Shown here one piece after another: positions 1-16,890 of a stretch of 21,595 nucleotides of DNA. The stretch lies in the IMG/VR virus record IMGVR_UViG_3300042434_000470, positions 1 to 21,595 of that record; one strand, given 5' to 3'. The notes below the pieces were generated by a model that made no database searches, was not told the origin of the DNA, and saw only the letters and a program-made list of their open reading frames with translations. A program made the position numbers and the translations under genes. Source of the stretch: a virus. Each line of letters begins with the position of its first letter. Within the stretch, counting starts at the first letter, position 1.

Positions 1-216
1 AATGAAGATAACGTACATGGGCAATGTGTTTACTGCAATCAACATCAGCATGGCAATCAAATTGAATACGGGTTAAGATTACCTTTAAGAATAGGTCAAG
101 ATGCTTACAATAGACTAATGAATAAAAGAGGGGATGCGCTTAAATTAACATTAGATGAAATAAAAGAACTAATTAAAATTTACAAATTAAAAATCAAAGA
201 ACATGGAAAATTATAA
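1..216 (+). CDS. ninG: NinG/Rap-like recombination protein, C-terminal part (5' end outside window)
   Basis: Frame 1 is open from the first base to the TAA at 214-216, giving the last 71 residues of a protein that starts upstream. The visible part opens with DNVHGQCVYCN followed by HQHGNQIEYGLRL. This fits the zinc-binding C-terminal half of the lambda NinG (Rap) family, where a Cys-x2-Cys pair lies next to an NVHGQC-type segment and is followed by an EYRxGL-type helix. NinG acts in phage recombination by processing branched DNA. The rest is Lys-rich and helical, ending in EHGKL. The stop overlaps the next gene by 14 bases. The N-terminal zinc ligands cannot be seen, so the assignment rests on the C-terminal motif alone. 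Confidence 0.72.
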   Translation, partial: NEDNVHGQCVYCNQHQHGNQIEYGLRLPLRIGQDAYNRLMNKRGDALKLTLDEIKELIKIYKLKIKEHGKL

Positions 217-397
217 AGATGGAGACAAAATAAGAATATGGTTAGAAGATAACATGGAATCCGAAGGTGGCACATGGTGTTATGGTAAAATAGAAGAAAT
301 AAAAATTATTAAAAAAATCTTTGTTCAGGATGGGTTTAAACTTGATCCTGAAAACGAGATTGAAGATTTTAAAGGTTACAAAATAGAAAAATTATAA
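203..397 (+). CDS. Small hypothetical phage protein (64 aa)
   Basis: The ATG at 203 lies inside the end of the NinG-like gene, and TAA at 395-397 is followed two bases later by the next ATG. The 64-residue product is strongly charged and contains YKDGDKIRIWLEDN near the start and GGTWCYGKIEEI in the middle. The spacing of Gly, Trp and beta-prone residues suggests a small SH3-like or beta-barrel fold, but this is inference only. No family is recognised. Coding is supported by tight packing between overlapping neighbours in the same direction. Confidence 0.6.
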   Translation: MENYKDGDKIRIWLEDNMESEGGTWCYGKIEEIKIIKKIFVQDGFKLDPENEIEDFKGYKIEKL

Positions 398-399
398 TT

Positions 400-684
400 A
401 TGGAAAAAGCACTAACAACTGAACAGGCAAAAGTAGAATTTGAATCACATCTTCTAATTGGTTTATTTAAATCAACAGTTGAGCAATCAACACAATTAAC
501 TGGTAAATTTAAACATAAGATGAAAGCTGATTTTAATCTATGGCAAAAACAAGGCTTTAAAATAGTTGAAGAACTTGAAAAAAGAAACATAACAGACGTT
601 GAGTACTTAGATAAAATAGGCGATATTTATCATACTATGAACTCAAATATGCGTGAAGAATTTTACAAAGGTTTGAAATCATGA
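400..684 (+). CDS. Hypothetical helical phage protein (94 aa)
   Basis: The ATG at 400 follows the previous stop by two bases, and the stop overlaps the methyltransferase start as ATGA at 681-684. This points to translational coupling. The product looks almost wholly alpha-helical, with KVEFESHLLIGLF in the N-terminal half and IVEELEKRNITDVEYLDKI in the second half. It has no Cys cluster, signal peptide or membrane segment. It resembles the many small phage proteins found between recombination and replication genes. No function is assigned. Confidence 0.62.
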   Translation: MEKALTTEQAKVEFESHLLIGLFKSTVEQSTQLTGKFKHKMKADFNLWQKQGFKIVEELEKRNITDVEYLDKIGDIYHTMNSNMREEFYKGLKS

Positions 685-1340
685 AATTAACTGATAAAAT
701 AGAAATTACTAATGAAGATAACATGGTTTTAATGGCTCGATATCCTGATAACTATTTTGATTTGGCAATAGTTGACCCGCCTTATGGGATTGATGCCGAT
801 GTGAAAAACTCACAAAACAAAGTGCAAAGTAAAAAATCAGCAACTAAATCAAAAAAGTATGGCTCTCAATTATGGGATGCAAATATCCCAACAGATGAGT
901 ATTTTGATGAGTTGATGAGAATTAGTAAAAAGCAGATTGTTTGGGGTGCAAATTATTTTGGGTTAGTTGGTGGAATGATTTATTGGCATAAGAATGTAAC
1001 AATGCCCACTTATAGTACTGGAGAATTGGCTTGGGTTAGTTGGTTAAATAAATTAGACTTTATTGATATAGCGTGGCACGGAATGATACAACATGATATG
1101 AAAAACAAAGAAACGAGAATACACCCCACTCAAAAACCCGTAGCACTTTACAAATGGATTCTTGACAAATACGCGAAAGAAGGCGACAAGATACTTGACA
1201 CCCATCTAGGCTCAGGCTCAATAGCAATAGCTTGTCACGATTATGGTTTTGATTTAACCGCCTGTGAATTAGATAAAGAATACTTTAATAAGGCAATAAA
1301 AAGAATTAACAATCATGTTGCACAATTAAAATTAATTTAG
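681..1340 (+). CDS. DNA methyltransferase (N6-adenine/N4-cytosine type, beta-class order)
   Basis: This 219-aa protein is a probable solitary DNA methyltransferase using S-adenosylmethionine. Catalytic motif IV is DPPYGI at residues 32-37. A variable stretch that may recognise the target follows, then HPTQKP at 148-153, and SAM-binding motif I is DTHLGSGS at 173-180. Motif IV before motif I is the beta-class arrangement. Motif I is altered from the usual DPFxGSG form, a variant often seen in phage enzymes. Length is at the short end for the family, so the target-recognition region is small. No restriction gene is adjacent, so a self-protection or regulatory role is more likely than a restriction-modification pair. 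The -33 part of a promoter lies within its last codons. Base specificity cannot be read from the sequence. Confidence 0.9.
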   Translation: MKLTDKIEITNEDNMVLMARYPDNYFDLAIVDPPYGIDADVKNSQNKVQSKKSATKSKKYGSQLWDANIPTDEYFDELMRISKKQIVWGANYFGLVGGMIYWHKNVTMPTYSTGELAWVSWLNKLDFIDIAWHGMIQHDMKNKETRIHPTQKPVALYKWILDKYAKEGDKILDTHLGSGSIAIACHDYGFDLTACELDKEYFNKAIKRINNHVAQLKLI

Positions 1341-1348
1341 TATATTTG
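1318..1348 (+). promoter_or_regulatory. Bacteroidetes-type promoter (TTG-N20-TATATTTG)
   Basis: TTG at 1318-1320 and TATATTTG at 1341-1348 are separated by 20 bases. This matches the known Bacteroidetes primary sigma consensus of a -33 TTG/TTTG and a -7 TAnnTTTG. The -33 element lies in the last codons of the methyltransferase gene and the -7 element follows its TAG stop directly. Transcription should begin near 1353-1356, the base of the first hairpin of the RNA downstream. It is the only good match I noticed next to a gene start or gap in the window. Confidence 0.72.
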
Positions 1349-1352
1349 CACT

Positions 1353-1473
1353 ATCGGAGTAACGACCGATTTCAAGAAATACAATCACATTAAAACATTT
1401 AGCCTCTAAGTGTTCAGGTGCAGAGTGATTGCTGCATGGTTTCGTAAACCAACTGAACATTTAGGGGTTTTTT
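1353..1473 (+). ncRNA. Candidate structured phage RNA with pseudoknot and own terminator
   Basis: The 146-base gap between genes holds no open frame of note but a dense set of complementary segments. P1 is ATCGG (1353-1357) with CCGAT (1366-1370). P2 is a 15-bp stem, 1403-1417 with 1453-1467, including two G-U pairs. P2 encloses P3, TGCAG (1419-1423) with CTGCA (1432-1436), and P4, TGGTTT (1437-1442) with AAACCA (1446-1451), forming a three-way junction. Seven of the eight P3 loop bases, GTGATTG (1425-1431), are the exact reverse complement of the otherwise unpaired CAATCAC at 1382-1388. A T-run follows P2. A promoter ends five bases before P1. The result would be a transcript of about 120 nt. 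It could be a free small RNA or a leader attenuator for the replication gene at 1487. I do not recognise a known RNA family. Confidence 0.62.
1403..1473 (+). terminator. Intrinsic terminator formed by the long P2 stem and T-run
   Basis: CCTCTAAGTGTTCAG at 1403-1417 pairs with CTGAACATTTAGGGG at 1453-1467, and six T follow at 1468-1473. The stem is 15 bp with two G-U pairs and is G+C-rich next to the T-run. Unlike a usual terminator its 35-base interior is itself folded into two hairpins. The next gene begins 13 bases after the T-run and has no separate promoter that I can see, so read-through or conditional termination is likely. Confidence 0.6.
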
Positions 1474-1486
1474 AATTTATAAAATT

Positions 1487-2143
1487 GTGAGAAAATCATT
1501 TATATTACATATTGATAGTTTAGGTATTTTAAATGAATTAACTGATGAACAAGCTGGTCAATTATTTAAACTTATTTATAATTATTATAACCCAAACAAA
1601 CCCATTGAAACCCAAATAACCCAATTGGTTAATTTGGCTTTTTATCCATTTAAAAGTCAATTTGAAAGAGACTTACAGGCATATAATAAAGTATGTGATA
1701 GGAATAAAAATAATGGTATGTTAGGAGGTAGACCTAAAAAAAATAACCCAAACAAACCCAAAAAACCCGATAATGATAATAAGAATAAAAATAATAATGA
1801 TAATGATAATAATAATGATAATAAAAATAATAAGAATTTACCTGCTCTTAAAAATAAATATTTAGATTCAATTACTCTTTCAGATATTGAATATAATAAA
1901 TTATTATCTGAATATGCTCAGCATGAGGTTGATTGGATGATTGATTGTTTAAATAATTATAAAATGAGTAGTGGTGTTAGATACAAATCAGATTATCATG
2001 CTATTTGCAAGTGGGTTAAAGATGCTTTTAGAAAAGCAAAGGTTGATTTTATTAAAGACAATAATACAAGCGAAGTAAGAATAGCAACAGCAATGAAAGC
2101 AATTGAAAACATTAACTGGGACGATTATACAAACCAACTATGA
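1487..2143 (+). CDS. Phage replication protein, DUF6291 N-terminal domain, DnaD-like C-terminal region
   Basis: The start is GTG at 1487; the first in-frame ATG lies about 230 bases further in and would remove the conserved N-terminus. Residues 1-85 (FILHIDSLGILNELTDEQAG, then a hydrophobic helix and the MLGGRPKKN end) fit DUF6291, a domain at the N-terminus of phage replication or helicase-loader-like proteins. Residues about 86-118 form a linker rich in Asn, Asp and Lys. The C-terminal part, with SSGVRYKSDYHAICKWVKDAF, resembles the end of DnaD/replisome-organiser proteins. The likely role is bringing replication machinery to the phage origin. It lies directly downstream of the structured RNA and overlaps the next gene by ATGA. 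Confidence 0.68.
   Translation: MRKSFILHIDSLGILNELTDEQAGQLFKLIYNYYNPNKPIETQITQLVNLAFYPFKSQFERDLQAYNKVCDRNKNNGMLGGRPKKNNPNKPKKPDNDNKNKNNNDNDNNNDNKNNKNLPALKNKYLDSITLSDIEYNKLLSEYAQHEVDWMIDCLNNYKMSSGVRYKSDYHAICKWVKDAFRKAKVDFIKDNNTSEVRIATAMKAIENINWDDYTNQL
1771..1836 (+). repeat. AT-only low-complexity tract encoding an Asn/Asp/Lys linker
   Basis: A run of imperfect AAT, GAT and AAA-type triplets spans about 66 bases within the replication gene and contains almost no C. It encodes a flexible polar linker between the N-terminal and C-terminal domains. Period-3 units suggest slippage-driven length variation that keeps the frame. Confidence 0.7.
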
Positions 2144-2988
2144 ATCAAATAACAACAACAAATGGATTTTCAGCTTTAGAAGTTGAAGCCATGCAGAAAC
2201 TAAATGATTATTTAAAAACATTCATTGAAGTAAAAAATGAAGTTAAAATAATTCATAAAGACAAACAGGAAGTATTAACTCAACTTTATGCAATCGTAAT
2301 TAAGACAATTGAATTAAGCGGTGAAAACAAAAAATACAACTTAGATAATCAAACTATTAAAAACGTAGCTGGTTTTGTTTATGAGTACGTTTTAGAAAAT
2401 TATAAGGGTGCAACACTATCCGAGCTAAAAAAAGCGTTTAAAATGGGAATAAGTGGTGAATTTGGTGAATTTGTAGGGTTTGGTACTGTAACATTCACTA
2501 AGTTTATTAAAAGTTACATGAGCTATTCAAAAAGAGAACAAGCTATTAAAGAATGGTTTAAATACCAAACACCTACAACTGAAAAGCCAATCACTAAGTT
2601 TTTTGAGCAAAATTTACAGATAGCTAATTACTTTTTTAAAGTATGTGAAGAAAAAAACTCGGAGCGATTCCATACAATTTTAAACCATGAAGACAATGTA
2701 ATGCACTTACCTTCTATTTATGAGTTCCTATATGCTAATTATCAAATATCATTTACCGAAGAAAGCAAAGAAATAATTAAGAAAAAAGCTAAAATCAAAT
2801 ACAATAATTATATTAAAAAGTCAGGATTAAAAGATGCTGATTCAAAAGGTTATCAAAAAATAATTACTTCAGTAATAGATAATCAAAATAAAACATTTGA
2901 TAATTACCTTAAAACACAGGCTTTAATCTTTTTAACTTTAAAACTAAAGCAACAAGGTAAAACATTTGATAATTTAAAAAGAATATGA
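2140..2988 (+). CDS. Probable replication-module protein (unknown function, 282 aa)
   Basis: The gene overlaps both neighbours by ATGA (2140-2143 and 2985-2988). The 282-residue product is basic and mainly helical. The central segment GATLSELKKAFKMGISGEFG, followed by FGTVTFTKFIKSYMSY, resembles a part seen in proteins next to replication genes in Bacteroidetes phages and plasmids; this is recognition by eye, not a named family. A mostly polar C-terminal half ends in a helical KTQALIFLTLKLKQQGKTF. No Walker, zinc or nuclease motif is visible. Position after the DUF6291 gene suggests a helicase-loading, primosome or single-strand-binding accessory role, which remains a guess. Confidence 0.55.
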   Translation: MNQITTTNGFSALEVEAMQKLNDYLKTFIEVKNEVKIIHKDKQEVLTQLYAIVIKTIELSGENKKYNLDNQTIKNVAGFVYEYVLENYKGATLSELKKAFKMGISGEFGEFVGFGTVTFTKFIKSYMSYSKREQAIKEWFKYQTPTTEKPITKFFEQNLQIANYFFKVCEEKNSERFHTILNHEDNVMHLPSIYEFLYANYQISFTEESKEIIKKKAKIKYNNYIKKSGLKDADSKGYQKIITSVIDNQNKTFDNYLKTQALIFLTLKLKQQGKTFDNLKRI

Positions 2989-3788
2989 AAATAATAAATT
3001 CATTAAGTGGTGGCAAAACTTCAAGTTACATGGCATTCCATTATCCAGCTGATTATAATATATTTTCACTTGTTAGAATAGAAGATGTTAATTGTAAACC
3101 AAAAGATAAAAGTTTAATTAAATATGTTTCTGATAAAATAGGAATGGAATTTATAGCAACAGCAGAAAGTGATAAAACTCTTTATGTTATGAGAGACCTC
3201 GAACAATTAATTGGAAAAGATATAATTTGGGTAAGTGGGCAAACATTTGAAAAAGTGAATGGTAAAAGGTTACCTAATCAACAATGGAGATTTTGCACAA
3301 CTGAAATGAAAATGCGCCCAATATTTGACTGGTGGTTTAAAAATATATGTGAAAAAGTTAAAATGGGAATAGGTTTTAGATATGATGAAAAAGAAAGAGC
3401 TGAAAGATTAACAACTAAATTTAAAGGAATAGTAGGTAAAAGAGGAATAAAAAATAAATGGGAAGAAATTGAATGGAGAGAAGGTTACTTTCCTTTAATT
3501 GAAAATAAAATAAATCATTACCATGTAAATCAATGGGCTAAAAATACTAATTTATTGTTTCCTGAAGATTCAAATTGTGTAGGCTGTTTTTGGAAACCAG
3601 TCCAACAATTAAGAAAAAATTGGAATGATGAACCTGAAAAAATGCAATGGTTTGCTAATCAAGAAAATAAAATAAAAAGAACATTTAAAAAAGAAATTAC
3701 CTATGAACAAATAAAATCAATAGGAATTCAAAGTGATTTTATATTTGGAACAGGTAGTGGATGCCAAGCTGGTTATTGTACTGATTAA
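2985..3788 (+). CDS. PP-loop ATP pyrophosphatase, PAPS reductase/DndC-like (phage)
   Basis: This 267-aa protein belongs to the adenine nucleotide alpha-hydrolase (PP-loop) superfamily. The N-terminal NSLSGGKTSSYMA has the ATP-binding SGGKTS loop at residues 8-13. FCTTEMKMRP, with Cys104, matches the conserved segment that binds the nucleotide-sulfate side in CysH/DndC proteins. Further cysteines lie at 198 and 201 (NCVGCFW) and at 260 and 265 near the C-terminus, so an Fe-S or zinc site is possible. The CysH catalytic ECGxH tail is absent, so true PAPS reduction in cysteine synthesis is unlikely. Phage members are common and have no settled function; tRNA or DNA sulfur chemistry or nucleotide modification are candidates. 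No dnd or queuosine-pathway genes are nearby. Confidence 0.82.
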   Translation: MKIINSLSGGKTSSYMAFHYPADYNIFSLVRIEDVNCKPKDKSLIKYVSDKIGMEFIATAESDKTLYVMRDLEQLIGKDIIWVSGQTFEKVNGKRLPNQQWRFCTTEMKMRPIFDWWFKNICEKVKMGIGFRYDEKERAERLTTKFKGIVGKRGIKNKWEEIEWREGYFPLIENKINHYHVNQWAKNTNLLFPEDSNCVGCFWKPVQQLRKNWNDEPEKMQWFANQENKIKRTFKKEITYEQIKSIGIQSDFIFGTGSGCQAGYCTD

Positions 3789-3807
3789 TAAATAAAAACA
3801 AATAAAC

Positions 3808-3960
3808 ATGAAAACAAACAATCAAACAAATCTATCACTAATTTCTAAAATAGAATGGTGGGTAAAAAAATTAGATGTAAACTCAATTAGAGGAACTTTC
3901 GACTGGAATCAATACATGAAATATTTAAAGGCATTAGCAAATGAAAATAAAAAAAACTGA
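3808..3960 (+). CDS. Small hypothetical protein (50 aa)
   Basis: An ATG at 3808 after an A-rich leader (AAATAAAC) opens a 50-codon frame ending TGA at 3958-3960. The product is helical and amphipathic, with KIEWWVKKLDVNSIRG and TFDWNQYMKYLKALAN as visible segments. Four aromatic residues, three of them Trp, spaced along two helices suggest a packed small domain or a partner-binding peptide. It overlaps the next tiny gene by 20 bases. No family is recognised; coding is inferred from spacing, the leader and protein-like composition. Confidence 0.55.
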   Translation: MKTNNQTNLSLISKIEWWVKKLDVNSIRGTFDWNQYMKYLKALANENKKN

Positions 3961-4018
3961 TATTCAATTTATTTTAATTGCTGTTTTCTTATTAGTTTGT
4001 TTAATTTTGTCTAAGTGA
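3941..4018 (+). CDS. Single-pass membrane microprotein (25 aa)
   Basis: ATG at 3941 to TGA at 4016-4018 encodes 25 residues: a positively charged start (MKIKKTD) and then one hydrophobic segment (FILIAVFLLVCLIL) ending in SK. This is a minimal N-in transmembrane peptide. It overlaps the upstream gene by 20 bases and the sigma-like gene by GTGA (4015-4018), which ties it into the operon and supports translation. Its role is unknown; superinfection exclusion, membrane perturbation and a holin-like partner are all possible. Confidence 0.5.
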   Translation: MKIKKTDIQFILIAVFLLVCLILSK

Positions 4019-4512
4019 TTAGTGAGCTAGTAAATAACAAAATCTACAAACAAATTACTCGGAATGTATGCCACAATCACGAACTACAAGACGACCTTCA
4101 TTTTGAAGCTGTTTTAATTATTATTGAAAAGAAATTTGACTTAACCGAAATTAGAAACCTTAAACACTTTTTTTCAGCAGTAGTTTGGAGAACCTGGCAT
4201 TCAAATAAATTTAGAAAAAAGTATTTTGTAGACCATGTTAAGTTTGTAGACAATTTAAACGAGATTATAGAAGAAAAAGAAAATATTGATTATTCAGTAT
4301 TGATTAACTTTCTCGAGAGTTCACCACAAAATGAAACAGAATTTTACGAAGTCAATTTACTAAGATTGTATATTTTACATGGCGATGCAAAGAAATTAAG
4401 CAATAAAACAAAGATACCTTACAGAACAGTAGCAAACGATATTAAATTAATCAAAGACAAACTCAAACGACAGCACAATGAAAAAAATTCTGATAAAGGC
4501 GAATATGAATAA
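4015..4512 (+). CDS. Sigma-70-like RNA polymerase factor (phage)
   Basis: The start is GTG at 4015, overlapping the previous stop as GTGA. The 165-aa product has the layout of a small sigma-70/ECF-like protein. Residues about 1-70 resemble region 2 (YKQITRNVCHNHELQDDLHF, then AVLIIIEKKF and a Trp-containing FFSAVVWRTWHSNKFRKKY). An acidic linker follows. The end, LYILHGDAKKLSNKTKIPYR and TVANDIKLIKDKLKR, is a helix-turn-helix like region 4. Such proteins occur between early and late genes in Bacteroidetes phages and probably direct host RNA polymerase to phage promoters. Region 2 is divergent, so a DNA-binding regulator without core-polymerase contact remains possible. It overlaps the next gene by 35 bases. 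Confidence 0.65.
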   Translation: MISELVNNKIYKQITRNVCHNHELQDDLHFEAVLIIIEKKFDLTEIRNLKHFFSAVVWRTWHSNKFRKKYFVDHVKFVDNLNEIIEEKENIDYSVLINFLESSPQNETEFYEVNLLRLYILHGDAKKLSNKTKIPYRTVANDIKLIKDKLKRQHNEKNSDKGEYE

Positions 4513-5518
4513 CCTTAATGGGTTATCCTTTCACCGCTTAATAGTTCCATTCTCAAAAGTCTCTGACATGATAGACTTTCAATGTGATGTATTTCCAGAC
4601 TTAGATGCAGCGACTGATGAACAGCTTAAACAGTATTCAGCAGTTGTTTATCAAAGAGAAATAGATACAAACGGAAAATCACTTGAAATAATTAAAAAAT
4701 ATCATTCACTTGGAATTAAAGTGATATTTGACATTGACGATATTTGGACATTGCCTAAAAGCCATTATTTAAGTAGGCTTTATGAAATTCACAACATCCC
4801 AGCTCAAACAGTTGAAATACTTAAAAATGTAGATTTAGTAATAACCACAACTAAACATTTAGCATCAAAGATTAAAAAGTACAATAAGAATGTTGAGGTA
4901 ATTCCTAACTGTTTAGATCACGAAGATGAGCAATGGAAACCAAACAAAACTAAAAGTGATAAAATAAGATTTGGCTACATTGCCGGAATTTTTCACAAAG
5001 AAGATATTTCAATTTTAGAAATGCCAATTAGAAAGGTATTAAGGCATGATATAAACGCTCAATTTGTTTTAGGTGGATATAATGACAATGCAGATTATAA
5101 CTATTATGAAAAGGTAATGAGTGGTGGAACTTTAACCGACAAATACCAAAGAGTATATAGTTTACCTGTTCATGATTACGGAAAGGCTTATAATGAAACT
5201 GATGTTAGCTTAATCCCATTGCAATCTAACTCATTTACCGAATGCAAAAGCGAAATAAAGTTACTTGAAGCTGGGATGCATGGCAACCCTGTAATTGTTA
5301 GTGATGTACTACCATATAACATATTTCCAAAAGAAACTGCAATATTTTTAAATAATAGTGACATCAATGGCTGGTACAAGGCAATAAGAAACCTAAGCAA
5401 AGATGAATCAATGAGAAAAGAATATGCAGAAAGTTTACAAAAATATATTGAAAAACATTATAACATAAACAAATGGACTCAAATAAGAAAACAGATTTTA
5501 CAATCGGTATTGGCGTAA
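4478..5518 (+). CDS. GT-B glycosyltransferase, GT4-like
   Basis: This 346-aa protein has the two-domain GT-B pattern. The N-terminal half carries HRLIVPFSKVSD and FDIDDIW at residues 84-90, a motif seen in phage and LPS-type glycosyltransferases. The next segment is DLVITTTKHLASKI, then NVEVIPNCLD, which marks the link between the Rossmann domains. The C-terminal half has RFGYIAG, the ADVSLIP-like TDVSLIPL, and ECKSEIKLLEAG (255-266), where Glu255 and Glu264 sit in the donor-binding E-x(n)-E region. GNPVIVSD follows. It should transfer a sugar from a nucleotide-sugar donor in the cytoplasm. It is the first gene of the sugar cassette and overlaps the sigma-like gene by 35 bases and the next gene by 46. 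Confidence 0.88.
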   Translation: MKKILIKANMNNLNGLSFHRLIVPFSKVSDMIDFQCDVFPDLDAATDEQLKQYSAVVYQREIDTNGKSLEIIKKYHSLGIKVIFDIDDIWTLPKSHYLSRLYEIHNIPAQTVEILKNVDLVITTTKHLASKIKKYNKNVEVIPNCLDHEDEQWKPNKTKSDKIRFGYIAGIFHKEDISILEMPIRKVLRHDINAQFVLGGYNDNADYNYYEKVMSGGTLTDKYQRVYSLPVHDYGKAYNETDVSLIPLQSNSFTECKSEIKLLEAGMHGNPVIVSDVLPYNIFPKETAIFLNNSDINGWYKAIRNLSKDESMRKEYAESLQKYIEKHYNINKWTQIRKQILQSVLA

Positions 5519-6129
5519 CTACAACTCCAAATCGTAAAGAATACGTAAATAGATGGCTAGAATACTTTGAAAAGTTTAAACCTTCTAATTACCATCTGCA
5601 CATTCACGAAGATGTACACTACAAAGGTGTTGCATACTCAAAAAATCAAAACTTATATACTTTAAGAGACTGCGACTTTATTTTCTTATTTGACGATGAC
5701 TGCTATCCATTTGAAAATAATTGGGCTGAATATTTTATTAACTCAGGATATAATCACTTACTATACTTAAAACCTAGTCATAATTTAAAAGCTAAAATAA
5801 ACGATTTAGAGATATATCGAGATTGTGGTGGTGTATTTATATACTTAACAAAAGAAGTATTAAATAAAGTAGGTTATTTTAATTCTGAGTATGGGCAGTA
5901 TGGATTTGAACATGCAGGTTACTCAAACAGAATTTATAAAGCAGGATTAACCGATGCACCTTACCAACAACTTGAAGAAACTGATAAATACATTTGCGCC
6001 TTAGATTATATTATTGAACACAAATCAAGTATTCCTGAATATAAAAAAGGAAAGTTAATAGAAGAAAATCGAAAAGTATTTATAAAGGAATTGCAAAGCG
6101 AAACTATTTTTTATAACTTTGAAGAGTGA
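5473..6129 (+). CDS. GT-A glycosyltransferase-like protein
   Basis: The 218-aa product begins after a 46-base overlap with the GT4-like gene. GVTTTPNRKEYVNRWL at the N-terminus and CDFIFLFDDDCYPF, with Asp74-76, form the nucleotide-binding strand and metal-binding DxD region of a GT-A fold. The later DCGGVFIYLTKEVLNKVGYF and QYGFEHAGYSNRIYKAG resemble the acceptor-side part of GT2 and related transferases, where an E/D-H motif helps catalysis. No membrane segment is present, so it is probably soluble and cytoplasmic. Donor and acceptor are unknown. Confidence 0.75.
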   Translation: MDSNKKTDFTIGIGVTTTPNRKEYVNRWLEYFEKFKPSNYHLHIHEDVHYKGVAYSKNQNLYTLRDCDFIFLFDDDCYPFENNWAEYFINSGYNHLLYLKPSHNLKAKINDLEIYRDCGGVFIYLTKEVLNKVGYFNSEYGQYGFEHAGYSNRIYKAGLTDAPYQQLEETDKYICALDYIIEHKSSIPEYKKGKLIEENRKVFIKELQSETIFYNFEE

Positions 6130-6824
6130 ACGAACACATACTTTTTAAACTAGCAACTCGCAGCAGACCACAAAAAGCAAAAAAAGCAATTGATAATATC
6201 ATAATGCTTTGTAATTCAATGAATTATACTATTTTAGTTAGTATTGATGAAGATGACGAAAGTATGTTTGGTTTTAGTTATCCTGATGACAATGTATTTA
6301 TAAGTAGAGGCACTTCCAAAAATAAAATAGATGCCATTAATCGAGACATGGATATTTTTGAGGGTTGGGACATTTTAATCAATACTTCAGATGACATGGT
6401 ATTTGAAATTAAAGGATTTGACAATATAATTAGGCAAGACTTTAAAGGAAACTTCGACCAGGTTCTTCATTATACAGATGGCAATCAACACGCAAACATT
6501 ATGACTATGTCAATAATGGGCTTCGACTACTATAATCGTTTTGGTTATATTTACCATCCCGATTACAAGTCATTGTGGTGTGATGCTGAAGCTACAGAAG
6601 TTGCTCACCTTTTAGGCAAATATGAGTACATGGGTGATAGCAAAGTTTTATTTAGACATATGCATCCTGCATGGGGACTAGCAGATTACGATGAACAATA
6701 CAGAAAAACAGAAAGTCAAGAAATGTGGAACACAGATTATAATTTGTTTAAATATAGAAAGTCAGAAGATTATTTTTTACCTAAACATTTAATTATAAAT
6801 AAACCTAAATACAATAATGTATAG
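6126..6824 (+). CDS. GT-A-like glycosyltransferase
   Basis: The start is GTG at 6126, overlapping the previous TGA as GTGA. The 232-aa product has an N-terminal FKLATRSRPQKAKKAI typical of a GT2-like first strand and helix. An acidic VSIDEDDESM follows, then WDILINTSDDMVF with Asp89-Asp90 as the likely metal and nucleotide ligand. YKSLWCDAEATEVAHLLGKY and LFRHMHPAWG near the end fit the acceptor-side conserved region. It differs clearly in sequence from the preceding transferase, so the pair probably adds different sugars and is not a recent duplication. It overlaps the FkbM gene by 8 bases. Confidence 0.72.
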   Translation: MNEHILFKLATRSRPQKAKKAIDNIIMLCNSMNYTILVSIDEDDESMFGFSYPDDNVFISRGTSKNKIDAINRDMDIFEGWDILINTSDDMVFEIKGFDNIIRQDFKGNFDQVLHYTDGNQHANIMTMSIMGFDYYNRFGYIYHPDYKSLWCDAEATEVAHLLGKYEYMGDSKVLFRHMHPAWGLADYDEQYRKTESQEMWNTDYNLFKYRKSEDYFLPKHLIINKPKYNNV

Positions 6825-12722: not shown

Positions 12723-13933
12723 CAATATACAATACACCTAACAGCTACGCACCAGTTTACAATCAAATGGTTTTTACTTTGAGTTCAACAAACGTTGCTC
12801 AATCTAATTTTCGTTACATAGCAGATATTTATGTAAATGGATCAAGTGATTATACTAGATTGGAAGTAGGCAGAAATCCAAGTAACAACTATGGAACATT
12901 TGATGTGGCAGGTATCATTCAAAACTTTTTAACTAGAGATGCAGATGACAATACAACTACATTTAAACAATGTGTAAACTCAATAGCATCTTATATAGTT
13001 CAATTTGGTGAGCAATATGGTCCAAGTAGTGGAATTACGAACTATCCTAACTTAACAACAAGTTCAGGTTATTGTTTTAATGGGGTGTTCAGTCCGTTAG
13101 ACTTTTTAGATTTCCAAACTAACACCTATGTACTTGAAAATAGTTCAAGTCAATTTCTTACTGACAGACCAACTTTTGAATCAAGAACAGGTGAAAAACT
13201 TATTTTAGGTTTTATGACTGATGCTGCAAATGAGGCAAAGTTTTTAGAGATTATAAGTTTTTATGATGAAGGTACAATATTTAATACAGTTACAGTTGCT
13301 AATCCTTTTACATCAATAACCAATAGGCAAGACCGTTCAATCAATGTAAGAGTAGATTATGACTGGTTAACTACATTAGTTAATGCAGACTTGTCAAGTG
13401 GTTCAACACCTATCTTCGTTGTTAATTGGGAATACTATGATTTAAGAATTAAAAACAGCACAGGAACGATAGTAAGTGAAACAATCCGTATATATCCTGG
13501 TGAAGATATTTGCTCAAAGTACACACCTATCCGTTTTAAGTTTATGAATAACTATGGTAAGTACGATTATTACACTTTTACAGGTGCAATGACTAAAAAC
13601 ACCAACATTAAAAGAAACACTTACAAAAGCAATCCTAATCAATGGAGTGGCACTAATTATAGCTACTCAACTACAAGTAGAGGATTAAGCCAATATGAAA
13701 CAATATTAGACGATACAATTACAATCAATAGTGATTGGATTACAGAAGCTGAAAGCATTTGGTTAGAACAATTAGTAACAAGTCCTGATGTTTATATTTA
13801 CGATGGCAGTAATTTAGTATCAGTCAACATAACAGATAGCAGTTATCAAACAAAATACGAAGCTAGTCAGCAGCTATTTAATTTAGTGGTTTCATTTACT
13901 TACTCACAAAACAGAAAAAGACAAAGAAGATGA
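12713..13933 (+). CDS. Tail-tip protein, distal-tail (Dit)-like candidate
   Basis: The 406-aa product is beta-rich with few charges, as expected of a virion protein. It begins with a strand-rich domain (MVFTLSSTN, then RYIADIYVNG and GTFDVAGIIQNFL). The centre has IRFKFMNNYGKYDYYTFTGA and TKNTNIKRNTYKSN, a block I associate with Bacteroidetes phage tail proteins without a formal name. The C-terminal part has SDWITEAESIWLEQLVTSPD and then a sandwich-like strand set ending in VVSFTYS. Its place before the large tail-tip gene suggests a distal-tail or baseplate hub role. It has no catalytic motif. It overlaps the next gene by ATGA. Confidence 0.5.
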   Translation: MAITIYNTPNSYAPVYNQMVFTLSSTNVAQSNFRYIADIYVNGSSDYTRLEVGRNPSNNYGTFDVAGIIQNFLTRDADDNTTTFKQCVNSIASYIVQFGEQYGPSSGITNYPNLTTSSGYCFNGVFSPLDFLDFQTNTYVLENSSSQFLTDRPTFESRTGEKLILGFMTDAANEAKFLEIISFYDEGTIFNTVTVANPFTSITNRQDRSINVRVDYDWLTTLVNADLSSGSTPIFVVNWEYYDLRIKNSTGTIVSETIRIYPGEDICSKYTPIRFKFMNNYGKYDYYTFTGAMTKNTNIKRNTYKSNPNQWSGTNYSYSTTSRGLSQYETILDDTITINSDWITEAESIWLEQLVTSPDVYIYDGSNLVSVNITDSSYQTKYEASQQLFNLVVSFTYSQNRKRQRR

Positions 13934-16890
13934 TTTTAACTAAAATTTACATTAACAACGAGCAGATAGATTTAAAAGAAGATGTTTCAATACCTCTTAA
14001 CTTTAATATTGCTGATATTAGAGAACCTGAAAAGCGCAGCACTACATGGAGCAAGACTGTTATATTACCAGGCTCTACTTTTAATAATGAATTGTTTTCG
14101 AATATATGGAATGTTAATGCAGTCATTAATAGTACAGGCACTACTAACTTTACTCCAAATTTTAACCCGAACTTAAAAGCAATAGCAGAAATAACTTATA
14201 ATGAGGCAACACAATTCAAAGGCATTTGTCAATTGTTAAATGTTAATGTTACTGATAAATATGAGATAGAATATGAGGTAGCTTTCTTTGGTGAGTTGCA
14301 GAATGTATATCAATTTTTTACTAATAAGTATTTAAGAAATATTGATTTAACTGAATTTAACCATCCTTATACATTAAATGAGCAGTATTTAAGTTGGTAT
14401 CGACCAGTAGGCAATGGATTCGTATATCCGATGTTAGATTACGGTAATTCAATTAATAGTGAATTTAGAGTACAACACATGTATCCTGCTATTTACATTA
14501 AGACAATTATTGATAAAATGTTTAGTGAAGCTGGATTTACATACCAATCAAATTTCTTCAATAGTGATTTATTTAAAAGATTAATCATGCCTTACAATGG
14601 CAAAAGTGATTTAAAATTAAATACAACACAAGTTAGAGATAGAAGTTTTAGAGCTGAAAAAACATCAGTTCAAACTTTAAGTATAAATAAAGTTTTTGCA
14701 AATTCACTACCTGATGGTTCACAAAATGCAAACATAATAGTTAACTTTCAAAATGATTCAACAGGTCTTAATTTTGATGATGGCAATCATTTTTACGATA
14801 TAAATGGCGGAACTAATCTAAATACTTTTATTGTACCAAGGTCTGGAGTTTATACATTTAAAACTCAACTTTATTGCAGTGCAAGTCATTACCCAAGTAC
14901 AGCAACGGCTGGAGTTAATTCAAGTTCTTTGGGAATGATTAAAATAGTAAAAAATCCACTAAACCAAGGTAGTGGATATCAATCTATTGCTAATGTACCA
15001 GTTTATTTAGCAATAAATTATGCTAGTTCACAAGTTGAGAATGCCTTTAATATTCCTGCAATAGCAAGTTATAATATAAGTGATGTAACTATTTCAAGTG
15101 GTACTACTGGTCCTGAAGTTTATGGCAGTTTAGAAATAACATCTTTTGTTGATGAAAATGATATTATTGAAATTAAATTTGATAGGTCTAATTTACCAGC
15201 TCCACCAACTGGACATGGAGCTTATTATACAGTTTCTCCTTTTTCAAGACAATTAACAAGCGCCACTTCTTATGTTGATGTAAATATTAATCTAAATAGT
15301 TATTTTACAGGCTTTCCTGCTGATAATAACATTCAAGAATATGATGAAGTTGATTTGAATTATAATTTACCTGACAATGTAAAGCAAAGTGATTTTTTCA
15401 ACTCGATAGTTAAAATGTTTAATCTATTTGTTGAGGTTGATAAATTTAATCCTAATAAACTTTATATTGAACCAAGACCGACATTTTATTCAAGTGGAGT
15501 TACACGTGACTGGTCGGAAAAATTAGATTACTCAAAAGAAACAAAGATTATCCCGATGGGTGAGTTAAACAATAAAACTTACCTATTTACTTACAAAGAA
15601 GATACTGATTTCTTTAATAATCAGTACAAGTCAAAATACGGTGAAATTTATGGAGAAAAACGTTATGATATTCAAAATGACTTTTTAAAAGGTGAGGTTA
15701 AAACAGAATTAATTTTTAGTCCTACTCCATTAGTAGATACAATTGGACATGATAGAGTATTATCTAAAATTTATACAGTTGACAATAACGGTCAAATAAA
15801 ACCTACAGGATCTAATATGAGAATATTATATTATGGTGGTTTAAAACAAACAAGTTATCCTTGGTCTCATATTGCAACAAGTGGTACAACTGTTAGAAAC
15901 GATTATCCATACGCAGGACATTTAGATGATGTTCAAGAACCAACATTAGATTTAAACTTTGGAATACCTAGACAAGTTTATTATACACCTTCACGTTATA
16001 CATCAAATAACCTTTACAATAAATATTGGAAAGATTATATTGAACAAATAGCAGATAAGGATAGTAAACTATTTACAGGTTATTTTTTAATTAATGAATT
16101 TGACATTCAAAGTTTAGATTTTAGAGATACATTCTTTTTTGAAAATGAGTATTGGAGACTTAACAAAATAATTGATTATGATAGAATAAATAACCAACCT
16201 ACAAAATGTGAGTTTATTAAATTAAAAACTTTACCTACTTACATTGATGATAATGGATTTGATAATAAAGGCGGTATAGAAGACAATGGAAATATTATAG
16301 CACCAACTGGTAGAATAACAGGCGGATACAATAATAACTTTTATCCTGAAGGCGCAATTGTTAGTGGTCGAAATAACGTAATTCAAAGTGGAGATGGAAT
16401 AATAGTAACTGGCAATAATAACTTTATTGGTATAGGTTCAAAGAATGTAACAATAACAAGTTCGAGCGGAGTTAATGTTTTAGGCGGTGTTTCAAATGTA
16501 AGTGTAACAAATAGTTCAGGAATAACAGTAACAGAATCCAATGTAACTTATAACAATGGAATTAAAACATTAAACAGTGTTAATTATAAAAAGTATGTTG
16601 CTTTATTAAATCAAACAGGCACAAATGATCCAACTGCATACGTTTTAGAAAATACATTAAGCTCGGGGATAGTATGGACTAGAGATACAACAGGAGAATA
16701 CTTAGGAACAGTAACAGGGGAGTTTACCGAAAATAAAACAGTTGCTTTTTTAACTATTACAGATAATGGAGAGGCAATGGCGGGAAGAAAAAATTCAAAC
16801 ACAATAGCTGTTTATACTTATAACTCAAGCGGAACAGCAACAGATGGTAAATTGACAAATTCAAGTATAGAAATACGAGTTTATTCATAA
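13930..16890 (+). CDS. Large tail-tip/receptor-binding protein with beta-solenoid (986 aa)
   Basis: The N-terminal part (VSIPLNFNIADIREPEKRST, then TWSKTVILPGSTFNNELFSN) is typical of Bacteroidetes phage baseplate/tail proteins in which the first 200 residues attach to the tail. The middle has long beta-rich segments and a VEVDKFNPNKLYIEPRPTFY stretch. Residues about 778-877 contain short repeats (AIVSGRNNVIQSGDGIIVTG, NVTITSSSGVNVLGG), which look like a left-handed beta-solenoid as in trimeric tip proteins. The last 100 residues (from KKYVALLNQTG) include SSGIVWTRDTTGEYLGTVTG and read like a C-terminal tip or trimerisation domain. The likely role is host binding. It would act outside the cell as part of the virion. 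Confidence 0.62.
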   Translation: MILTKIYINNEQIDLKEDVSIPLNFNIADIREPEKRSTTWSKTVILPGSTFNNELFSNIWNVNAVINSTGTTNFTPNFNPNLKAIAEITYNEATQFKGICQLLNVNVTDKYEIEYEVAFFGELQNVYQFFTNKYLRNIDLTEFNHPYTLNEQYLSWYRPVGNGFVYPMLDYGNSINSEFRVQHMYPAIYIKTIIDKMFSEAGFTYQSNFFNSDLFKRLIMPYNGKSDLKLNTTQVRDRSFRAEKTSVQTLSINKVFANSLPDGSQNANIIVNFQNDSTGLNFDDGNHFYDINGGTNLNTFIVPRSGVYTFKTQLYCSASHYPSTATAGVNSSSLGMIKIVKNPLNQGSGYQSIANVPVYLAINYASSQVENAFNIPAIASYNISDVTISSGTTGPEVYGSLEITSFVDENDIIEIKFDRSNLPAPPTGHGAYYTVSPFSRQLTSATSYVDVNINLNSYFTGFPADNNIQEYDEVDLNYNLPDNVKQSDFFNSIVKMFNLFVEVDKFNPNKLYIEPRPTFYSSGVTRDWSEKLDYSKETKIIPMGELNNKTYLFTYKEDTDFFNNQYKSKYGEIYGEKRYDIQNDFLKGEVKTELIFSPTPLVDTIGHDRVLSKIYTVDNNGQIKPTGSNMRILYYGGLKQTSYPWSHIATSGTTVRNDYPYAGHLDDVQEPTLDLNFGIPRQVYYTPSRYTSNNLYNKYWKDYIEQIADKDSKLFTGYFLINEFDIQSLDFRDTFFFENEYWRLNKIIDYDRINNQPTKCEFIKLKTLPTYIDDNGFDNKGGIEDNGNIIAPTGRITGGYNNNFYPEGAIVSGRNNVIQSGDGIIVTGNNNFIGIGSKNVTITSSSGVNVLGGVSNVSVTNSSGITVTESNVTYNNGIKTLNSVNYKKYVALLNQTGTNDPTAYVLENTLSSGIVWTRDTTGEYLGTVTGEFTENKTVAFLTITDNGEAMAGRKNSNTIAVYTYNSSGTATDGKLTNSSIEIRVYS

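Follow-up and report, generated by a model that had tools for sequence, protein, structure and literature searches.

Both attenuators and leader RNAs of phages have been described, and several of these systems resemble the element reported here in one respect or another. Antisense RNAs of the pT181 and ColE1 type illustrate that RNA pairing via variable loops can set copy number; the C4 antisense RNA of P1- and P7-like phages is a leader RNA that contains strands complementary to each other and targets the start of the antirepressor; riboswitches of the crcB (fluoride) type contain a pseudoknot; and the put RNA of phage HK022 has no terminator of its own. According to excerpts of the literature, crcB-type riboswitches are structured leaders that overlap a terminator (PMC2864571, where the C4 family is listed as RF01695), HK022 put is an early leader RNA that itself suppresses pausing and termination (PMC9378689), and the CI RNA of phage P4 pairs with seqA and seqC, terminating transcription of the replication genes (PMC4825925).

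The window considered here is the whole of a 21,595-base virus record (IMGVR_UViG_3300042434_000470), in which a leader of approximately 125 nt, flanked by a promoter of the Bacteroidota type and by an intrinsic terminator, follows a DNA methyltransferase gene (681-1340) and precedes a replication gene (1487-2143). The putative promoter (1318-1348), on the plus strand like every feature of the leader described below, was located by a scan for TAnnTTTG with TTG upstream, which is the promoter consensus of Bacteroidota; it comprises TTG at 1318-1320 and TATATTTG at 1341-1348, and the latter shows no variation in alignment A1. Minimum free energy (MFE) folding of 1352-1480 gives four helices, P1-P4, at -39.1 kcal/mol (z -5.1, with none of 200 shuffles as good). 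P1 (1353-1370) is a hairpin of ATCGG and CCGAT with the loop AGTAACGA, and its stem is invariant in 18 aligned rows. The 5' strand of P2 (1403-1417), supported by fold and alignment, is followed by P3 (1418-1437; stem GTGCAG at 1418-1423 with CTGCAT at 1432-1437) and P4 (1438-1450; GGTTT with AAACC), both supported by fold and covariation, and the eight-nucleotide loop of P3 consists of A1424 and GTGATTG (1425-1431). By its letters, fold and alignment, the 3' strand of P2 (1453-1467) together with the T-run at 1468-1473 constitutes an intrinsic terminator (1453-1473), and the initial annotation had rightly taken P2 for the terminator stem, since sequence and MFE fold agree on this point; a simple terminator scan did not list it because that scan admits loops of 3-8 nt only and P2 is branched. 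A spacer (1474-1486) that includes AATTTA, a motif present in 35 of 35 contexts, precedes the start codon of the first gene after the leader. By sequence, a promoter, a structured leader and an intrinsic terminator ahead of the first gene of an operon form the arrangement of an attenuator leader; a search for tRNA and tmRNA genes in the window returned none.

Like P4 CI RNA, the leader of the window and its relatives (class I) combine a position at the head of a replication operon with short complementary strands and apparent premature termination (PMC4825925, excerpts), and, as with seqA, a 5' strand is complementary to a strand within the leader RNA of a replication gene. In class I, however, the arm of the terminator itself contains the complement, none of 31 contexts has a seqC-like copy of the 5' strand after the terminator (mean match of 3.39 nt vs 3.96 nt in shuffled sequence), and no integrase (PF00589) was detected in the 12 records searched, all possibly fragments; action in trans would be ascribed to class I by analogy. 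No Rfam family reached gathering thresholds for the window or for eight loci with other leaders, and the search of 1300-1560 gave just two chance miRNA matches below threshold (E 0.42 and 1.7) and no known aptamer family. This sets class I apart from C4 (RF01695), from which it also differs in that the start of the downstream gene offers no second target (31 contexts), and from the crcB type, with which it shares a structured leader overlapping a terminator; the paired bases of class I vary among its members. HK022 put, compared by description, is alike in being a phage leader RNA, and the pT181 and ColE1 systems differ from class I, for which a scan of the opposite strand from 1 to 4415 gave no promoter match.

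Relatives of the leader were collected by two IMG/VR pattern scans (50 contigs each, 53 together), and a covariance model yielded 72 matches of at least 121 bits over 97 overlapping sources. Sixty-two places were parsed, giving 61 full elements and 24 distinct sequences; the one truncated at the end of its contig was set aside, and the other 23 form alignment A2. Covariance-model matches at 16-31 bits were not counted as class I, being mostly opposite-strand matches at places already counted or belonging to the class II and III leaders described below. Of the 12 records searched whole, five gave additional matches, considered as second copies, which proved to lie opposite the first match on the other strand, leaving one copy per record. 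Bacterial genomes gave no match to the strict pattern and five to the loose pattern, none of which scored with the covariance model, and nucleotide similarity to the leader among phage records was limited to short matches (E 0.2-0.6).

The central observation concerns CAATCAC (1382-1388), which is exactly complementary to GTGATTG, seven of the eight loop bases of P3; the initial annotation had located both strands to the letter, had proposed a pseudoknot or kissing pair, and had judged the match unlikely by chance. In the window alone, shuffling the 30-nt linker 200,000 times produced CAATCAC in 659 cases, a frequency that makes the match improbable yet not decisive, and it is comparison with homologous sequences that is conclusive. 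Exact complementary 7-mers were found in all 23 distinct full-length leaders of A2, in nine types that are entirely Watson-Crick (CAATCAC, CATCAAC, GAGTAAC, GCTTAAC, CATCTAC, CTATCAC, CTATAAC, GAAGTAC, and CTGTAAC); the GCTTAAC pair of L015 and L063 came from a second analysis, the first script having taken the wrong hairpin as P3. Covariation, named beforehand as the decisive evidence, was counted in alignment A3, which holds 18 rows aligned in register by MAFFT and omits the five rows of the L026 group because MAFFT put them one column off; those rows carry an exact CATCTAC/GTAGATG pair. All 126 pair cells of A3 pair, with 34 changed on both sides and none on one side, the uncompensated kind of change that had been set down in advance as counting against the proposal.

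Compensatory changes affect five of the seven base pairs, G-U is absent from the pair in all 18 rows, in none of 500 shuffles is the share of paired cells or the covariation score as high, and versions of the pair slid out of register reach only 21-51% pairing. The pseudoknot is also more variable than any of the helices (0.375 pairwise differences per site, vs 0.281 in P3, 0.214 in P4, 0.125 in P2, and 0 in P1), and L013 and L020, which differ in one of 122 other columns, differ in six of the 14 pseudoknot columns. Such covariation of a hairpin loop with a distal strand is that of a loop-to-single-strand pseudoknot and, since related phages changed both halves together, the pairing is real. 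Its topology is less fixed: CAATCAC was described as otherwise unpaired, and it does pair with GTGATTG, but in the MFE prefix fold ending at 1452 the two strands form a nested helix that encloses another hairpin, with no knot, and by this prediction CAATCAC need not be otherwise unpaired or knotted.

Across the complete structure, all 684 cells of A3 are paired, 83 with both sides changed; both-side changes occur in some rows at four of the six pairs of P3 and three of the five pairs of P4, and P2 retains G-U pairs in most rows. Covariation is uninformative for P1, because P1 never varies. We therefore regard P2, P3, P4 and the 7-bp pair as demonstrated by sequence comparison, and P1 as a predicted, conserved and invariant hairpin. 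A further, competing helix may form early in transcription. AACATTTAG at 1394-1402 repeats the terminator 3' strand at 1456-1464 and is complementary to CTAAGTGTT at 1406-1414, within the 5' strand of P2; 97.5% of 162 cells of this hairpin pair in A3 (vs 23-52% when slid), and prefix folds predict it for transcripts ending at 1416-1458, with P2 replacing it by 1462 and beyond. Both-side changes affect two of its pairs and are confined to the rows L015 and L063. The alignment and the predicted folds are thus suggestive of an antiterminator, in part. Similarly, ACGA in the P1 loop can pair with UCGU in the P4 loop in 21 of 23 rows, and the other two have ACUA and UAGU instead, which suggests a possible P1-P4 loop contact; for this contact as for the early hairpin, compensatory change comes from a single lineage (L015 and L063). 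No counterpart of the early hairpin was seen by eye in class II leaders, so it is not general.

The same plan was found to recur in leaders unrelated to class I. Relatives of the gene at 1487 occupy 38 loci, 18 of which have a class I leader, and most of the other loci inspected have at this position an unrelated leader whose 5' strand or loop can pair with the terminator loop; the leader of L039 has no such complementarity, and the upstream sequences of L012 and L023 are too short to judge. In class II, whose core is TGAGTAGAG N7 CCTCGAAAGC and which was located in 58 stretches of contigs, one of these contigs being 266 kb long, the loop of a 5' hairpin and the terminator loop form an exact 7-bp kissing complement in 43 of 43 distinct copies (e.g., L016:2640-2734, L018:2901-2995, and L051:1675-1769). 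The pairs are of seven types, and the 5' stem occurs in four versions; if G-U is allowed, 38 of 258 combinations across types can pair, so these types are not fully distinct. Class II leaders also have a conserved GAGUA/GAAAG internal loop, which we take to resemble the loop-E motif, and some precede genes that may encode HNH homing endonucleases, judging by how they start. Class III (L031 and L032; e.g., L031:2643-2700) pairs its 5' strand with the terminator loop through a 10-nt complement and class IV (L010 and L166; e.g., L010:2929-2985) through a 7-nt complement; each is of one type and so provides no covariation evidence.

Cultured phages carry the plan as well. An exact 8-bp terminator complement accompanies GTGAGACG in lillamy9-1, GTGAGAAG in morran9-1 and GTGGAACG in mumin6-1, and snusmum9-1 is identical to mumin6-1 at that place (by eye, as the script ranked another match first). 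The complement in phi19:1 was likewise taken by eye or from a plan scan, a different one having been ranked first by the script. CTCTCACAA (9 bp) occurs in phi19:3, phi46:3 and phi13:2, and phi18:3 has CTTCTGAC there. The stretch L155:14080-14260 and its homologues in morran9-1, mumin6-1 and phi19:1 make up a leader family of cultured Flavobacterium phages with compensatory 8-bp pairs. The plan scan covered six cultured phages and the window, counting places with a match of at least 7 against the shuffled expectation; it gave 2 vs 1.45 in lillamy9-1, 2 vs 0.2 in phi19:3, 3 vs 1.4 in hemulen9-1, 1 vs 0.1 in the window, 1 vs 0 in phi19:1, and 3 vs 2.05 in RAP44 (two of them of 14 bp), as well as 2 vs 1.0 in 6H, where neither of the two places is convincing. 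The scan is weak on its own for lillamy, hemulen and 6H and, by number of places, for RAP44, and compensatory change was relied on instead; by that evidence from sequence, the pairing of a 5' strand with the terminator loop recurs in unrelated leaders of Flavobacteriia phages, with compensatory change in three families.

The Riemerella phage RAP44 has two leaders with complements of 14 bp (L160:13720-13900 on the plus strand and 30400-30580 on the minus strand), both upstream of antirepressor genes. In each, a 5' sequence of 12-14 nt has its complement within the terminator and is repeated at the start codon of the next gene; the two copies differ in a compensated manner. These features suggest antisense control, presumably of the C4 kind; by design the RAP44 leader compared with Rfam looks closer to C4 than class I does, but it gave only weak, unrelated matches. 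No leader of the 5'-strand/terminator-loop plan was seen upstream of the replication gene of RAP44 or in a Vibrio phage with a DUF6291 gene (L152).

What lies downstream bears on the mode of action. The product of the gene at 1487-2143 matches Pfam DUF6291 and a replisome organizer in PHROG, and its relatives adjoin an annotated DNA replication protein in Cellulophaga phage phi19:3 and an annotated primase in lillamy9-1, so the gene had been correctly designated a replication gene. Some relatives of the leader precede helicase/methyltransferase or PAPS-reductase genes. By their N-termini, the first genes sort into 16 groups, of which at least nine look unrelated by eye, and the domains in the first or next genes include DUF6291, Lin1244_N, DUF1376-like, an SNF2 helicase-methyltransferase fusion and PAPS reductase; the same leader thus heads an operon and is not tied to one gene. 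In all 35 distinct contexts (counted after two that were too short had been dropped), a start codon on the same strand lies 17-20 nt past GGGG, and the preservation of this spacing and of AATTTA before differing genes favours a cis-acting operon leader over a free small RNA. Farther along, the window also holds a PAPS-reductase-like gene (2985-3788) and three glycosyltransferase-like genes (4478-6824), all downstream of the replication genes, and a 986-residue protein without a PHROG match (13930-16890).

We consider it reasonably probable (roughly 0.6) that the element is the 5' leader of a replication operon and acts in cis as a transcription attenuator, with the pseudoknot setting the balance or serving as a switch or lock. 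Transcription would start near 1350; P1 would form first, then probably the hairpin of 1394-1402 with 1406-1414, and then P3, whose loop would pair with CAATCAC. This early fold would occupy the 5' half of the terminator and favour readthrough, until the emerging 3' strand of P2 (approximately 1458-1465) could displace the early hairpin and transcription would stop at 1468-1473, the pseudoknot setting the balance between the two outcomes. The two states that the initial annotation had envisaged thus gain a competing hairpin that it did not name, and the second pairing option of the terminator 5' strand, with 97.5% of cells paired, supports the attenuator; that termination is conditional, in which direction and upon what signal, we infer, and our guess is that the pseudoknot favours readthrough. 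Speculatively, the signal could be a terminated copy of the leader that pairs with the 5' strand of a transcript still being made, which would act as a dosage brake on replication. By predicted energies, the terminator state (-36.0 kcal/mol) is far more stable than the early state without the pseudoknot (-21.2 kcal/mol), so readthrough must be kinetic or aided, and the pseudoknot duplex is worth -4.8 to -7.1 kcal/mol. The pseudoknot might also coexist with P2 and would then not have to influence termination.

The same pairing could also operate between molecules. In this somewhat unlikely but still serious alternative, the leader is a self-specific antisense RNA acting in trans in the manner of P4 CI RNA: a terminated leader would pair through its loop with the nascent 5' strand of another transcript and force its termination, so that replication is limited by copy number or a like phage is excluded. 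The P4 precedent (PMC4825925, excerpts), the antisense look of the RAP44 leaders, the high variability of the pseudoknot, its block-wise change between L013 and L020, and the absence of G-U from the pair all fit this arrangement, although the block changes fit structure-keeping drift or recombination equally well, and neither a second, seqC-like site nor an integrase emerged from the contexts and possibly fragmentary records mentioned above. The Baltic Sea isolates of Flavobacterium are, moreover, called virulent (PMC7077304). No trans target was found besides the 5' strand itself. If the terminated leader, rather than acting on its own operon, acted on host or phage targets as a stand-alone small RNA of approximately 120 nt, with the pseudoknot lending compactness or stability, then a promoter-like sequence and a terminator of its own, a strong fold and at least one covarying tertiary pair would be expected, and all are present; but the start codon at constant spacing in 35 of 35 contexts, the AATTTA kept beyond the T-run, and the little space left for another promoter before 1487 make us doubt it.

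Protein-dependent antitermination, for which nut and UpxY/LoaP are models, would have a phage or host protein bind the fold, perhaps at P1, and carry RNA polymerase through the terminator. The invariance of P1 and near-invariance of its loop while other helices vary, as well as the position at the head of an operon, are in keeping with such a site; complementarity to the P4 loop also accounts for the conservation of the P1 loop, however, and the unrelated leader families have only the 5'-to-loop pairing in common, and we think a binding site of this kind improbable. A metabolite riboswitch with the terminator as its expression platform is considerably harder to sustain: a conserved fold with a pseudoknot does stand ahead of genes, but without an Rfam match at gathering score, with pseudoknot bases that vary freely, and before genes with no evident common pathway. 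Position ahead of a replication gene might likewise suggest an origin or cruciform acting as DNA, yet the G-U pairs of P2 are C-A mismatches on the other strand, and the promoter and T-run set a single reading direction, so that a DNA-level element appears barely credible.

Beyond attenuation in cis, Flavobacteriia phages may share a recurrent leader design that is independent of sequence, with a 5' end paired to the apical loop of the leader's own terminator; the pair would be a changeable self-recognition code by which a terminated leader recognises new transcripts of its own phage but not the transcripts of other phages. We offer this as a tentative and rather unlikely proposal. As far as we searched, this fold and the recurrent pairing of a 5' end with a terminator loop appear to be undescribed. 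The open-access literature, which is weak evidence of absence, yielded in the parts accessible to us no description of such leaders in Bacteroidota phages, and "promoter" and "terminator" do not occur in the main text, as far as available, of a study of 38 isolated Flavobacterium phages that are called virulent (PMC7077304).

The class I leader thus represents an RNA family without an Rfam match at gathering score, with unusually clean pseudoknot covariation, ahead of phage replication genes. If it is true that the pair is a self-recognition code, replication would be subject to an RNA brake that either counts copies of the genome or keeps out similar phages. Because the plan recurs, including in cultured Flavobacterium and Cellulophaga phages, the timing or limiting of replication genes in Bacteroidota phages becomes directly testable, and the L155-type leaders of cultured Flavobacterium phages provide a ready bench model.
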